Positions 55,757-62,223 of a stretch of DNA of 64,000 bases are shown piece after piece. How positions within the stretch are numbered: position 1 is the first letter of the stretch; every line of letters starts with the position of its first letter. Where the stretch lies: NCBI GenBank assembly GCA_902584365.1, contig CACHZG010000003.1, forward strand, positions 1 to 64,000. Direction: 5' to 3'. Below the pieces are notes generated by a model. It saw nothing but the letters and a program-made list of their open reading frames with translations, was not told the DNA's origin and searched no databases. The translations under genes and the position numbers were made by a program. The stretch comes from an uncultured Pelagibacteraceae bacterium (GTDB lineage Bacteria > Pseudomonadota > Alphaproteobacteria > Pelagibacterales > Pelagibacteraceae).

Positions 55757-57433
<1,677 letters not shown>

Positions 57434-57439
57434 TTTCAC

Positions 57440-58117
57440 CTAAACAAAAGATTTTAAAAAAGGCTGTAGTTTTGCAGCCTTTTTTTTTGCAATAAATAAA
57501 CATGCATTTGAGCTTAATATCAAACCATCTTTAAGAACTCTTAAATTATTATCAGCCAAAGTTTTGCCTGTAGAAGTTATATCTGTAATGATTTCAGAAG
57601 AACCTATAAATGGATAAGTTTCAGTAGCACCAAGACTGGTTATTAATTTATATTGGGTAACGCCTTTAGAAATCAAAAAATCATTAGTTAAATTTGGATA
57701 TTTAGTCGCTACTCTCAATCTTGCATTTCTTTTAGATCTAATATCAAAAGATACCTCTTCAAGATCAGCGATCGTCTGCACATCTATCCAATCATCTGGC
57801 ACTGCGATAACTAAGTTAGCATTACCAAAATCAAGTTTTTTTTGAATATTTATTTTATTCTGTAAGTTTATATCAGACTCTTTTAAGAGATCTAACCCAG
57901 ATACGCCCATATCAAGAGTTCCGTCTCCTAATCTTTGAATAATTTCTTTAGCGTGAAGAAAAATAACCTTGATGTTACTTTCATTTTCAATTGTCCCAAA
58001 ATAATTTCTTTCTTTTTCACTTTGCAGGATCTTTAGTCCTCTATCATTGAAAAATGATATTGCTTTATCTTTTAATCGCCCTTTACTTGGTAAACCTATA
58101 GTAATTTGATCTTTCAT
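57440..58117 (-). CDS. hisG: ATP phosphoribosyltransferase, short form
   Basis: ORF; LPSKGRLKDKAI, LGDGTLDMGVSGLDLL. Confidence 0.95.
   Translation of the reverse strand: MKDQITIGLPSKGRLKDKAISFFNDRGLKILQSEKERNYFGTIENESNIKVIFLHAKEIIQRLGDGTLDMGVSGLDLLKESDINLQNKINIQKKLDFGNANLVIAVPDDWIDVQTIADLEEVSFDIRSKRNARLRVATKYPNLTNDFLISKGVTQYKLITSLGATETYPFIGSSEIITDITSTGKTLADNNLRVLKDGLILSSNACLFIAKKKAAKLQPFLKSFV
57460..57488 (+). terminator. Intrinsic terminator of groESL located inside hisG
   Basis: AGGCTG-tagttttg-CAGCCT followed by an uninterrupted T-tract, 27 nt after groEL stop. Confidence 0.85.
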
Positions 58118-59151
58118 ATATTCTTTAAGTTAATTGCAGCACCAACCGCTGGGATTTTCTTTTTAGCTCCTAAACTTTTAAGTAAGTCATCATAACGGCC
58201 TCCCCTAGCAATTTCCTTTTTACCTGAGAATACCTCAAACACTATGCCAGTATAATATTCTACATCTCTCCCAAAATTTGCGATGAAATTGATATCCTGA
58301 TTTAGTTTTTTTAAATTAAGAATGGATTTAAAGTCTTTAAATATATTTTTTTTGAGATTATTTTTCTTAGTAAAATCAAACAATTTTTGATCAAGTTCTG
58401 AAAGTTTACATTTTATTTTTAAAAAAGATTTAATAATCTTTACGATTTTTTTTCCATCAACAAAAGATCTTGGGTCTTTAATCTTTTTGTCAAATCTTTT
58501 TAATATTTCTGATATCGACCTACCGGCAACCACTTTGTCTTGTTCTTTTTTTTTCATTTCATGAAATCTTTTTTTGTCTGTATCAAAAGTAACTGCATCA
58601 ATATCAGTACTTTTTTCCAATCTTTTTAAAAGCTCCTCGAAATAACTTGGTCTCCAAAAATGTCTTGTTAGTCTAAGCTTCCATCTTTCGGGCATATCTA
58701 GAGCATTAATTAGACTTTTAAATAAACCAATATCTCCAACTTTGATTAAAATTTTTTTTCTCTTTATCTTTTTTGCGGAGCTTAAAATTGTACTTATAAT
58801 TTTAAAATCATCTTGAATTTGATTTTTTGAGCCTAGAATCTCAATCCCTAACTGGTCATTGATGAAATTCGTACCTTTATTACCTGATCTTCTATATGCT
58901 TGACCGGAATAATAAATTTTTGAGGAAGATTTTTTTTGCAAGAAACTGATACATGAAGCTACGGTTAAATCGGGTCTTAAGCACATCGTTTTTCCATCTT
59001 CTCTATCAAATGTGAGCATTGAACTTCTAAATTTTTCTCCTGATCTCTCAATAATATAATCTGAGTCTAGAAGAACATCAGGTTCTAATAAAACAAAACC
59101 ATTGTTTTTAAAATTTTGAATAATGGTTTTAGATAATTTTTTTGATTTCAT
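58114..59151 (-). CDS. hisZ: ATP phosphoribosyltransferase regulatory subunit
   Basis: ORF; HisRS-like MCLRPDLT, YYSGQAYRR, adjacent to short hisG. Confidence 0.92.
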   Translation of the reverse strand: MKSKKLSKTIIQNFKNNGFVLLEPDVLLDSDYIIERSGEKFRSSMLTFDREDGKTMCLRPDLTVASCISFLQKKSSSKIYYSGQAYRRSGNKGTNFINDQLGIEILGSKNQIQDDFKIISTILSSAKKIKRKKILIKVGDIGLFKSLINALDMPERWKLRLTRHFWRPSYFEELLKRLEKSTDIDAVTFDTDKKRFHEMKKKEQDKVVAGRSISEILKRFDKKIKDPRSFVDGKKIVKIIKSFLKIKCKLSELDQKLFDFTKKNNLKKNIFKDFKSILNLKKLNQDINFIANFGRDVEYYTGIVFEVFSGKKEIARGGRYDDLLKSLGAKKKIPAVGAAINLKNI

Positions 59152-60463
59152 TAACTAATTCTTTTATTTTGATTGATTTTTCTTTACCACTACTTAAATT
59201 TCTTAGTGTTAGTTTGCCTAATTTAATCTCATCTTCTCCATATAAAATGACAGCAGGAGATTTTATTTTATTCGCATATTCCATTTGTTTTTTTAACTTA
59301 TTTTCTCCAGGATAAATTTCTGCACTTATACCGGATTTTCTTAATATCATTTGAACGTTAATGTATTCTTTCATTAAATTTTTATCGAAAACACAGATTA
59401 CGACAGGTTTTGATTGTTTTATTTTAAATTCCTTTTTCTGCATCAATGCATAAACCAATCGATCTAATCCTATTGATATACCCGTAGCAGGTGCATCAAA
59501 GTTGCCAAAATTATTTACTAAATTATCGTATCTCCCTCCACCGCCTATGGAGCCAAATTGAATTACTTGTCCTTTGTTATTTTTTACATCAAACTTTAAA
59601 TTTACTTCAAAAATTGCTCCAGTATAATATTCTAAACCTCTAACAACTGATGGATCAAATTGAAAATTAGTAAAATTATAATCTTTGAAAATTTTTAATA
59701 TTTCAGTAAGATCCTCGGTTTCGGGTGAATTTTTGTTTAGCGTTTTTTTTATTATTTCAATATCCTCAGGTTTTAAATTTGCGCCTTTTGTGAAATCTCC
59801 AGATTTGTCTTTTCGACCAGTACCTAACAATTCTTTTACCCCATCCCAACCAAGTCTATCAATTTTGTCTAGAGCTCTTAAAGCTGTGAGTTTTTGCTGA
59901 TTTTCGTTAATATTAATTTTTTTAAATAATTCGTCAGTTATTTTTCGCGATGAAATTTTTATAATATATTCTGATTTAGTGAGTCCACAATTTTCAAGAA
60001 TTTCTGAAATCATGACACATAACTCAGCATCTGCTTGTAAACTTTTAGTGCCTACAAAGTCAGCATCGAATTGTAAAAATTCTCTAAATCTTCCTGGCCC
60101 AGGCTTTTCATTTCTCCATACAGTCCCAAGTTGATACCTTTTAAATGGTTTTGGAATTTCTAAATAATTTTTTGCAACATACCTTGCTAGAGGTGCCGTA
60201 AGATCATATCTCAGAGACAACCACTTATTTTCATCTTTAAAAGAAAATACACCTTCATCAGGTCTATCTTTGTCTGGTAAAAATTTTCCAATACTGTCCG
60301 AGTATTCAAAACTTGGAGTTTCAAGATATCGGAAACCGTATTTGATCATAACTTCTTTAATATTAGAAATTATAAAATCACGTACGAGTAATTCTTTTTC
60401 TTGTCTATCTACAAACCCTAATGGAAGCTCTTTAGAAGGTTTGTTCTTTTTTTCTTTTGTCAT
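59129..60463 (-). CDS. hisS: Histidyl-tRNA synthetase (start corrected to ATG 60463)
   Basis: ORF; RYDLTAPLARYVA, VWRNEKPGPGRFREFLQFDADF, GLEYYTGAIFEV; track N-terminus lies in the tRNA. Confidence 0.96.
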   Translation of the reverse strand: MTKEKKNKPSKELPLGFVDRQEKELLVRDFIISNIKEVMIKYGFRYLETPSFEYSDSIGKFLPDKDRPDEGVFSFKDENKWLSLRYDLTAPLARYVAKNYLEIPKPFKRYQLGTVWRNEKPGPGRFREFLQFDADFVGTKSLQADAELCVMISEILENCGLTKSEYIIKISSRKITDELFKKININENQQKLTALRALDKIDRLGWDGVKELLGTGRKDKSGDFTKGANLKPEDIEIIKKTLNKNSPETEDLTEILKIFKDYNFTNFQFDPSVVRGLEYYTGAIFEVNLKFDVKNNKGQVIQFGSIGGGGRYDNLVNNFGNFDAPATGISIGLDRLVYALMQKKEFKIKQSKPVVICVFDKNLMKEYINVQMILRKSGISAEIYPGENKLKKQMEYANKIKSPAVILYGEDEIKLGKLTLRNLSSGKEKSIKIKELVNEIKKII

Positions 60464-60467
60464 TTTT

Positions 60468-60544
60468 TGGTACAGCAGGGTGGATTCGAACCACCGACCC
60501 CTAGTTCCACAAACTAGTGCTCTAACCAACTGAGCTACTGCTGC
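60468..60544 (-). tRNA. tRNA-His(GTG), CCA encoded; A73 and no G-1
   Basis: Reverse complement GCAGCAGTAGCTCAGTTGGTTAGAGCACTAGTTTGTGGAACTAGGGGTCGGTGGTTCGAATCCACCCTGCTGTACCA. Confidence 0.97.
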
Positions 60545-60586
60545 ATAACTCCTTTTTATATTAATTATTAATAAATTTGTATTTTA

Positions 60587-60708
60587 AAATATATAATGAT
60601 TTAGCTAAGCAATAGCCTAGCGTGCATTCTGTGAGAATGGAATTTGTAAAACGATGTTACTTTTCTTATCATTATCTAATATTTAGGAAAAAATTGTGTC
60701 TTTTTCAA
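60587..60708 (-). promoter_or_regulatory. Candidate structured leader upstream of tRNA-His-hisS-hisZ-hisG with possible leaderless 23-aa ORF (60601..60672) MIRKVTSFYKFHSHRMHARLLLS
   Basis: TTGAAA (60708-60703) - 17 nt - TAAATA (60685-60680), ATG at 60672; three internal hairpins enclosed by an ATAATGAT/ATCATTAT stem. Confidence 0.4.
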
Positions 60709-60713
60709 GGTTA

Positions 60714-60753
60714 AATTAACGGGACTTATGCTAGAACATTTGTCCCGCTAATT
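60714..60753 (-). other. Strong hairpin downstream of cspA, candidate 3'-UTR end or terminator-like structure
   Basis: Minus strand AATTAGCGGGAC / GTCCCGTTAATT, 12 bp with one G.U, 16-nt loop; no clean T-tract. Confidence 0.55.
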
Positions 60754-60774
60754 AATGATTTGGAAAATTTAGAA

Positions 60775-60987
60775 TTAAGATGTTTTCTGCAATTTAACTG
60801 CAGCAGGACCTTTTTCCGTGCTCTCCACTTCAAACGTTAATTCATCACCTTCGTTTAAATATTTTAAACCAGCTTCTCTTACTGCAGAAGAGTGAACGAA
60901 CACGTCTTTTTCTTTGTCTTCTCTTTCAATGAAACCATAACCTTTGGTACCATTGAACCACTTTACTTTACCTTTTAGTGTACTCAT
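60775..60987 (-). CDS. Cold-shock domain protein
   Basis: [30 protein letters not shown]. Confidence 0.97.
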
Positions 60988-61016
60988 TATTTACTTATCC
61001 TTGTTATTATTAACTT

Positions 61017-61068
61017 GTGCTAGCAAAGCTAACACGGCTCTTTAATAGATTTGTTAAATGAATGTCAA
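61017..61068 (-). promoter_or_regulatory. Promoter (-35 TTGACA 61068-61063) and 5'-UTR hairpin GTGTTAGC-TTT-GCTAGCAC of the cold-shock gene
   Basis: Read directly on the minus strand; hairpin 61035-61017. Confidence 0.6.
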
Positions 61069-61128
61069 GTTAACAATTATGCTTATTAAAAAAAACTTTA
61101 AAAATGACCTAAAAGTGACGCTTTTTTT

Positions 61129-62223
61129 CTAAAAAAATTTATAAAATGCAGCAATAATTAAAACTGCAGCTGCAATGTAAATAAATTTAAACTTGTTCAC
61201 ATTCCTCTTGATTTTAATAAAATTAGTCTCTTTAGATCCCAATTCAGAGACTGTTGTGCTTGTAAACCCTTTTTCTCTTCCGATTTTAAGGAATTTAGTT
61301 TTCCTATGGTCATAAATCTCAGCCCCAGACATGTTTTCAAAGAAATTAAGATTTTTTATTAATGAGGCCTTTATGTTTTGAGAAACCACTACATGATCTC
61401 TATGTGCTCCTCCAATAGGTTCATCTATAATTTCATCAATTATACCGAGAGATAAAAGATCTTTTGCTGTAAGCTTCATAGCTTCTGCTGCTTGAAGTGA
61501 TTTACCTGGGTCTCGCCAAAGAATGGAAGCGCATCCCTCGGGTGAGATAACAGAATAAATTGAGTTCTCTAACATTATAACTTTATTCGATGATGCCAGA
61601 GCAATCGCACCACCTGATCCACCCTCTCCGATGATTACTGATATATTGGGAACCTTAAGTGACATGCAGCACTCGATCGAATGAGCAATAGCTGAAGCTT
61701 GCCCTCTTTGCTCAGCACCAAGACCTGGGTATGCTCCTGGTGTATCTACAAAAGTAATGACAGGGATTTTAAATCTGCTAGCAAGTTGCATCAACCTCAC
61801 ACACTTCCTATAACCTTCAGGTCTCATCATTCCAAAATTTCTTTCAATTCTACTATTCAAGTCTTCACCCTTTTCCTGACCAATAACCAAAACAGATTTT
61901 TTATCAATTAATCCAAATCCGGCTATAACTGATTTATCGTCTCCAAATAATCGATCTCCAGATAGCTGGGTAAAACTATCAAAAATATTCTTAATATAAT
62001 AATTAGCTCTTGGTCTATCTTCGTGCCTTGCTACAAGAGTTTTTTGCCAGCTATTAAGATTTCCATAAGTGCTTTCTAATTTTTCGTTTATCTCATTTTG
62101 TAAATTTTTAATTTTTTCAGTGTCTACCTGAGAGAGACCGCCAGAACCGAATGGACTTTTTAAAGAGTCTAAATCTTCTTCTAAACTTTTAATTTCTTTT
62201 TCAAATTCTAAGTAATTTTTCAT
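61129..62223 (-). CDS. accA: Acetyl-CoA carboxylase carboxyltransferase alpha subunit with C-terminal TM extension
   Basis: ORF; GQEKGED, NFGMMRPEGYRK, DTPGAYPGLGAEQRGQ, GEGGSGGAIAL; C-terminal FKFIYIAAAVLIIAAFYKFF. Confidence 0.95.
   Translation of the reverse strand: MKNYLEFEKEIKSLEEDLDSLKSPFGSGGLSQVDTEKIKNLQNEINEKLESTYGNLNSWQKTLVARHEDRPRANYYIKNIFDSFTQLSGDRLFGDDKSVIAGFGLIDKKSVLVIGQEKGEDLNSRIERNFGMMRPEGYRKCVRLMQLASRFKIPVITFVDTPGAYPGLGAEQRGQASAIAHSIECCMSLKVPNISVIIGEGGSGGAIALASSNKVIMLENSIYSVISPEGCASILWRDPGKSLQAAEAMKLTAKDLLSLGIIDEIIDEPIGGAHRDHVVVSQNIKASLIKNLNFFENMSGAEIYDHRKTKFLKIGREKGFTSTTVSELGSKETNFIKIKRNVNKFKFIYIAAAVLIIAAFYKFF

Follow-up and report, generated by a model that had tools for sequence, protein, structure and literature searches.

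A leader peptide with clustered His codons upstream of tRNA-His-hisS-hisZ-hisG in SAR11 bacteria, a probable sensor of charged tRNA-His

Results

A short leader precedes the tRNA-His-hisS-hisZ-hisG genes

The window analysed here is a stretch of 64,000 nucleotides from an uncultured Pelagibacteraceae bacterium, and its nearest hisS relatives are Pelagibacteraceae single-cell genomes, including those of Ca. Pelagibacter ubique HIMB058 and SCGC AAA795-E07. On the minus strand, the cold-shock gene csp is followed by a short leader, tRNA-His, hisS, hisZ and hisG, and the region contains the following features:

60703-60708, minus strand: -35 box TTGAAA, from its sequence and its spacing to the ATG in relatives
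60680-60685, minus strand: -10 box TAAATA, from its sequence, kept in the leader alignment; predicted +1 at or beside the ATG
60668-60675, minus strand: 5' arm of helix P1, ATAATGAT, over the start codon; pairs with 60600-60593
60601-60672, minus strand: His leader ORF, 23 codons, MIRKVTSFYKFHSHRMHARLLLS*; intact in 110/110 leaders, with frame-specific synonymous bias and homologues in the family
60637-60639, minus strand: His codon 1 (CAT)
60631-60633, minus strand: His codon 2 (CAC), in the loop of hairpin A
60625-60639, minus strand: hairpin A, CATTCT-CAC-AGAATG, which holds the putative regulatory codons; double-sided changes in 8 cells of the alignment
60622-60624, minus strand: His codon 3 (CAC), unpaired, abutting hairpin B
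60604-60621, minus strand: hairpin B, GCTAGGC-TATT-GCTTAGC, overlapping the end of the ORF; within the genus, every cell (100%) is paired
60593-60600, minus strand: 3' arm of helix P1, ATCATTAT; pairs with 60668-60675
60468-60544, minus strand: tRNA-His (GTG), by ARAGORN and the Rfam tRNA model
59129-60463, minus strand: hisS, from the ORF and a whole-genome match (59132-60463); ATG 4 nt after the tRNA CCA
58114-59151, minus strand: hisZ, from the ORF and its position after hisS
57440-58117, minus strand: hisG, from the ORF and its position after hisZ

The names hisZ and hisG come from a first-pass annotation of the sequence and from conserved synteny rather than from a family search. That annotation held that everything downstream concerns histidine, and hisZ and hisG indeed follow hisS, in this order, in 67/67 complete loci. 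The genes are tightly packed: hisS and hisZ overlap by 23 bases (59129-59151), as is typical in relatives, and hisZ and hisG by 4 (58114-58117), which suggests translational coupling. The start of hisS lies 3-9 nt after the tRNA-His CCA in relatives (loci L145-L174 and L228-L240; 60461-60468, minus strand, in the window), with no room for a Shine-Dalgarno sequence of hisS outside the tRNA. Excision of the tRNA would therefore leave a nearly leaderless hisS message.

Two further elements flank the leader. Between csp and the leader stands a GC-rich inverted repeat, AGCGGGAC/GTCCCGTT (60719-60748, minus strand), whose 3' arm GTCCCG is kept, without a U-tract, in most same-genus leaders; it probably marks the 3' end of csp. 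An ATATAAA-like element lies some 10-18 nt upstream of the tRNA-His 5' end in every genus, also where tRNA-His is of another type (60562-60555, minus strand, in the window); it is a possible processing site or second promoter, for which no -35 partner was seen by eye.

The His codons are conserved as codons

The first-pass annotation had described a 23-codon ORF with three His codons within six residues. The ORF is present as described, ending at TAA 60603-60601, and a DNA search recovered the tRNA-His and leader block in most of 169 same-genus genomes, typically at 79-94% identity. When 110 same-genus leaders were read by the reading frame of hairpin B alone, with no use of His content, the in-frame ORF was intact in every one (23-26 codons, consensus MIIKxxxxSTLRSHSHRMHARLLLS(L)*). 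Leader length changed in multiples of three among them, so that indels preserve the frame, and the ORF was also intact in 80/80 named loci.

The His codons on which the annotation had built its proposal are conserved in related genomes: among 108 distinct leaders, the first, second and third positions are CAY in 106, 102 and 107, respectively. His codon 3 varies almost only between C and T (one A) and, because it sits in an unpaired linker, base pairing does not explain its conservation. Over the HSHRMH segment, the synonymous fraction of single-base codon differences is 0.729 in frame, compared to 0.287 expected, and the out-of-frame values (0.099 and 0.010) both fall below expectation. The peptide itself has no family match in NCBIfam or Pfam.

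Transcription probably starts at the leader ATG

TTGAAA (60708-60703), a 17-nt spacer, TAAATA (60685-60680) and, after another 7 nt, ATG 60672 all lie where the annotation had placed them. From the start of the -35 box to the leader ATG, the distance is 35-36 nt in 104/114 relatives. Because this distance is fixed and the promoter spacing is standard, transcription probably starts at or next to the ATG and the ORF would be read leaderless; the annotation's proposal of a leaderless ORF is thus favoured by the constraint on spacing. A generic sigma-70 scan of the region did not list the leader promoter, so the promoter call is based on conserved sequence and spacing. In some genera, a 13-bp inverted repeat, TGTTGCAAAGTAA...TTACTTTGCAACA, spans the promoter about 36 nt before the leader ATG (leaders L149-L152 and L162-L164, perfect in L163), a possible operator for some regulator.

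The leader RNA contains two hairpins with pairing conserved in the genus

The predicted fold of the 94-nt leader RNA has an energy of -19.7 kcal/mol (z = -3.49), which 1 of 200 shuffles reached. Three hairpins and an enclosing helix had been proposed by the annotation. Hairpins A (CATTCT/AGAATG) and B (GCTAGGC/GCTTAGC) stand: across 108 sequences, their pairs persist in 97.6% of cells, with 8 double-sided changes versus 0.5 in shuffles, and covariation is seen in the sister family as well (see below). The GTAA/TTAC hairpin is not conserved and was dropped from the element. The arms of the enclosing helix, P1, pair better within groups than between them (mean -4.86 versus -3.58 kcal/mol, fraction 0.0075), which lends moderate support to P1 as a predicted enclosing helix. 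As an invariant helix P1 fails, being broken in subclades of genus g1 and no better than swapped arms in genera g5 and g8.

Hairpin B has a stability of -9.4 kcal/mol in the window, and each of the 149 family leaders has a hairpin at the corresponding position, beginning 0 nt after the last His codon in 146 of them. One of its pairs toggles between G.U (88 sequences) and A-U (20), which would give C.A mismatches on the other strand; thus, the minus strand is the RNA, as the annotation had argued from a single G.U pair. The sequence of hairpin A differs wholly between genera, and the stem can re-form in several (CATTCT/AGAATG, CACTCT/AGAGTG, and GCAAAA/TTTTGC, as GCAAAA-CACCA-TTTTGC, in other genera).

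Could this RNA act as a riboswitch- or T-box-like structure that binds histidine or tRNA-His, with the ORF incidental? Its compact fold and the conservation of hairpin B would fit such a reading, which we nevertheless consider very improbable in view of the frame-specific synonymous evolution, the frame-preserving indels and the unconserved sequence of hairpin A. In addition, only the tRNA reaches the Rfam gathering score in the region, no Rfam match lies inside the leader itself even at a permissive threshold, and the element is kept over other tRNA-His types and shows no specific pairing with the tRNA.

The leader is found throughout Pelagibacteraceae and in a sister family

Leaders with 2-6 His codons lie upstream of tRNA-His-hisS in 149/149 Pelagibacteraceae leaders found, from 11 genera, and His makes up 12.5% of their residues overall; because the script picked the most His-rich ORF, a shuffled control is the fair comparison. 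By that comparison, the 27 hisS loci sampled from other Alphaproteobacteria do not rise above the shuffled level (1.15 versus 1.29). A covariance model found the leader as a single copy per genome, both within the genus and in most of the genera sampled from the family, and paralogous leader copies before other genes were discarded on this ground. The model (R1) had no match in the class sample outside the order, and a class-level pattern search gave three matches there. Ten same-genus genomes lack a model match, but they are 71-88% complete and are thus not evidence of absence. Even where the model fails, the tRNA-His/hisS upstream regions of other genera encode leaders such as MLTRINIAISHTHSHRVHAKLLLS, MIENLKIINLLNAKHHFAHARLLLS and MIKKYISTHRHHPHAGHALS, and further peptides of this kind are MKKIVFRHSHHLMHAKHMLG, MKNIVLNHTHHHTHAKHGLGN and MIKNNKLIVINYRHHFHAGCTLAI. 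Many of the genomes compared are incomplete single-cell or metagenome assemblies. As sequences within a genus are related, within-genus counts are not independent events, and the comparisons across genera and families carry the argument.

The strongest case for persistence of the leader over divergent HisRS and tRNA-His is genus g4. There, HisRS is only 44-47% identical to that of the window in most sampled members (74-75% in two), several unlike tRNA-His sequences occupy the same operon position, and the leader is kept. The upstream neighbour of the leader also differs in other genera, being tRNA-Phe in several.

In the sister family, 26/26 hisS loci have leaders of the M...HHHYHI* type with 3-4 His codons, about 90-100 nt before hisS and with no tRNA-His directly before it. 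Each leader is followed by a hairpin, for which several different, fully paired stem sequences occur, so that the stems covary. The leaders of the two families share their architecture, and may be either homologous or convergent. After the hairpin, sister-family leaders (L230-L232, L338-L360) carry a C-rich, G-poor block, in most of them AACCCC(C/T)TTTTTATA, possibly a Rho site, and a second hairpin of the GTATC/GATAC type lies before hisS.

A chance ORF over a conserved hairpin without regulatory role, for instance at the end of the cold-shock transcript, might be suspected because the ORF and the hairpins are short and the region is AT-rich. The clustered His codons in 149/149 and 26/26 leaders, compared to the shuffled level elsewhere, already contradict this explanation, as does a leader that stays while its upstream neighbour varies, and we give it practically no weight. 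Alternatively, the product could be a functional small peptide that acts in trans, like peTrpL in Sinorhizobium, and not a codon sensor. The small ORF is predicted to be leaderless and HARLLLS is strongly conserved within genus g1, where, however, this C-terminal conservation overlaps hairpin B. Across genera the peptide shrinks to ...HAG* or ...HHHYHI*, and nothing persists but the His codons and their position beside the hairpin, which makes a trans-acting peptide improbable.

Ribosome position would decide whether hairpin B forms

What would a ribosome on the leader do to hairpin B? We computed the geometry with a ribosome footprint of 29 nt (A site -17 to +11). When the A site holds the first His codon, the hairpin is free in 148/149 family leaders and 21/21 distinct sister-family leaders; with the ribosome at the stop codon, it is covered in 149/149 and 21/21. 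The stop codon itself is downstream of the hairpin in some groups, within it in others and upstream of it in others again. A computed outcome that stays the same over all three layouts would be expected under selection on ribosome position and matches the logic of an attenuator. Since hairpin B is covered as well when the ribosome stalls at the last His codon, the geometry does not fix the sign of the switch; taking hairpin B as the 'on' state assumes that starvation halts ribosomes mostly at the first His codons.

Comparison between genomes supports the ORF with its His codons, hairpin B, the geometry of these elements and the order of the genes, and together they make it very likely that the leader senses charged tRNA-His. 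We propose the following mechanism. From the promoter, transcription would begin at the ATG or beside it, and the ORF would be translated leaderless. With ample His-tRNA, the ribosome would reach the stop codon and cover hairpin B; under shortage, it would stall at the first His codons, which would let hairpin B form. This choice would set the amount of RNA that continues into tRNA-His, hisS, hisZ and hisG, such that a shortage raises the whole His-tRNA supply chain. The output would most likely be premature arrest of transcription, perhaps with Rho, and RNA processing or decay are close alternatives; coupling to RNA polymerase is presumed here, like the 'on' sign of hairpin B. Our preferred reading is thus a hisL-like His leader peptide that senses charged tRNA-His and exerts transcriptional control over the genes downstream (probability about 0.6).

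The output may operate without an intrinsic terminator

No terminator-like site was found in a scan of 60300-61200, and neither a U-tract nor a conserved competing hairpin was seen in the leader alignments of either family. A canonical terminator or antiterminator after the ORF was therefore rejected, in agreement with the annotation, whose caution that any mechanism is speculative also stands; nor did we find a terminator that would release the leader as a small RNA. Pairing of the 3' arm of hairpin B with tRNA-His as a competing structure was discarded too, being no more stable (mean -8.9) than pairing with other tRNAs (-9.5). Since neither an intrinsic terminator nor a competing hairpin was found, we infer the output step. 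A Rho domain is present in 19/21 relatives.

The missing terminator also suits a post-transcriptional output, in which His would be sensed as proposed and ribosome position would alter the access of nucleases, and thereby either the processing of the pre-tRNA or the decay of the hisS-hisZ-hisG message, with no termination. With tRNA-His between the leader and a hisS that starts 4 nt after CCA, expression passes through tRNA excision, and the AT-rich spacer with its TATAAA-like element precedes the tRNA in all genera. The sister family, however, has the leader with no intervening tRNA, so tRNA processing cannot be the general output, and we regard this alternative as rather unlikely next to transcriptional control. 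More speculative still is a combination in which a terminator-free His leader governs a tRNA gene, a synthetase and the first biosynthetic enzymes: hairpin B and P1 would choose between a Rho stop and processing, excision of tRNA-His would yield the nearly leaderless hisS, and sensing, tRNA supply and synthetase translation would form one coupled device.

Discussion

How does the SAR11 leader compare with known systems? A short ORF with clustered His codons precedes the relevant operon, the codons are kept as codons and, by computation, ribosomes at the first His codon and at the stop codon have opposite effects on the hairpin, all as in an attenuator. We looked for the defining Rho-independent terminator, mutually exclusive with an antiterminator, and found none by scan or in alignments; we therefore do not class the leader as a classical transcription attenuator.

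pheM, the leader of E. coli pheST, likewise places a synthetase operon under ribosome-mediated control, but with Phe codons, a canonical terminator and no intervening tRNA gene. The hisL attenuator belongs to the enterobacterial his operon and has a tandem run of His codons and an intrinsic terminator. The SAR11 leader resembles it in its short ORF with clustered His codons, in the hisG-containing operon downstream and in a hairpin whose formation would depend on ribosome position. Unlike hisL (summarised in PMC9413887), it has three separated His codons, is predicted to be leaderless, would also govern tRNA-His and hisS, and shows no intrinsic terminator or competing hairpin. Closer in phylogeny is uORFC-8-2, a cysteine uORF upstream of cysS in Rhodobacterales, which is also an alphaproteobacterial ribosome-mediated leader on an aminoacyl-tRNA synthetase gene with its regulatory codons within the first of two stems (PMC8632094). 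It differs in its amino acid and in a U-run end consistent with an intrinsic terminator, and its description mentions no tRNA gene that would separate leader and synthetase (PMC8632094). In bacilli, a His leader peptide lies upstream of hisS* and hisZ; these His-codon leaders on hisS-family genes are from Firmicutes and were found via Rho-independent terminators, with no tRNA-His described on the transcript (PMC2965389). Finally, the leaderless trpL of Sinorhizobium meliloti (rnTrpL/peTrpL) is an attenuator RNA of Alphaproteobacteria that begins with its ATG, as predicted in SAR11, but it concerns Trp, has a terminator and releases a small RNA, and trans roles were shown experimentally for it (PMC7298713). 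The annotation had named hisL and leaderless trpL as precedents, which both hold, and knew of none on a tRNA-His-hisS transcript; we found none either, but the bacillar leaders on hisS-family genes do exist (PMC2965389).

In the open-access literature, we found no report of the SAR11 leader element and no description of an attenuator over a tRNA gene, which the SAR11 leader appears to be. A published structured-RNA screen of Ca. P. ubique dropped intergenic regions containing tRNAs, which would explain why the leader was missed before (PMC2704228). Its order-wide spread, its persistence over divergent tRNA-His and HisRS and the sister-family leader directly before hisS all go beyond the first-pass annotation. 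SAR11 bacteria are among the ocean's most abundant cells and are believed to rely on few transcription factors, and the leader is therefore a likely example of regulation in a streamlined genome: it would sense one charged tRNA and control that tRNA, its synthetase and the committed step of histidine synthesis. Its persistence over divergent tRNA-His and HisRS types offers a natural experiment on regulatory wiring and, as no terminator is visible, attenuation without one becomes testable.

Gene ends elsewhere in the window are similar in this respect. A hairpin occurs at 3 of 21 gene ends examined, and only that of groL resembles a classic terminator. Most convergent gene pairs in the window are without a terminator-like hairpin, groL at 57433 being an exception, which raises the question of how SAR11 ends its transcripts.
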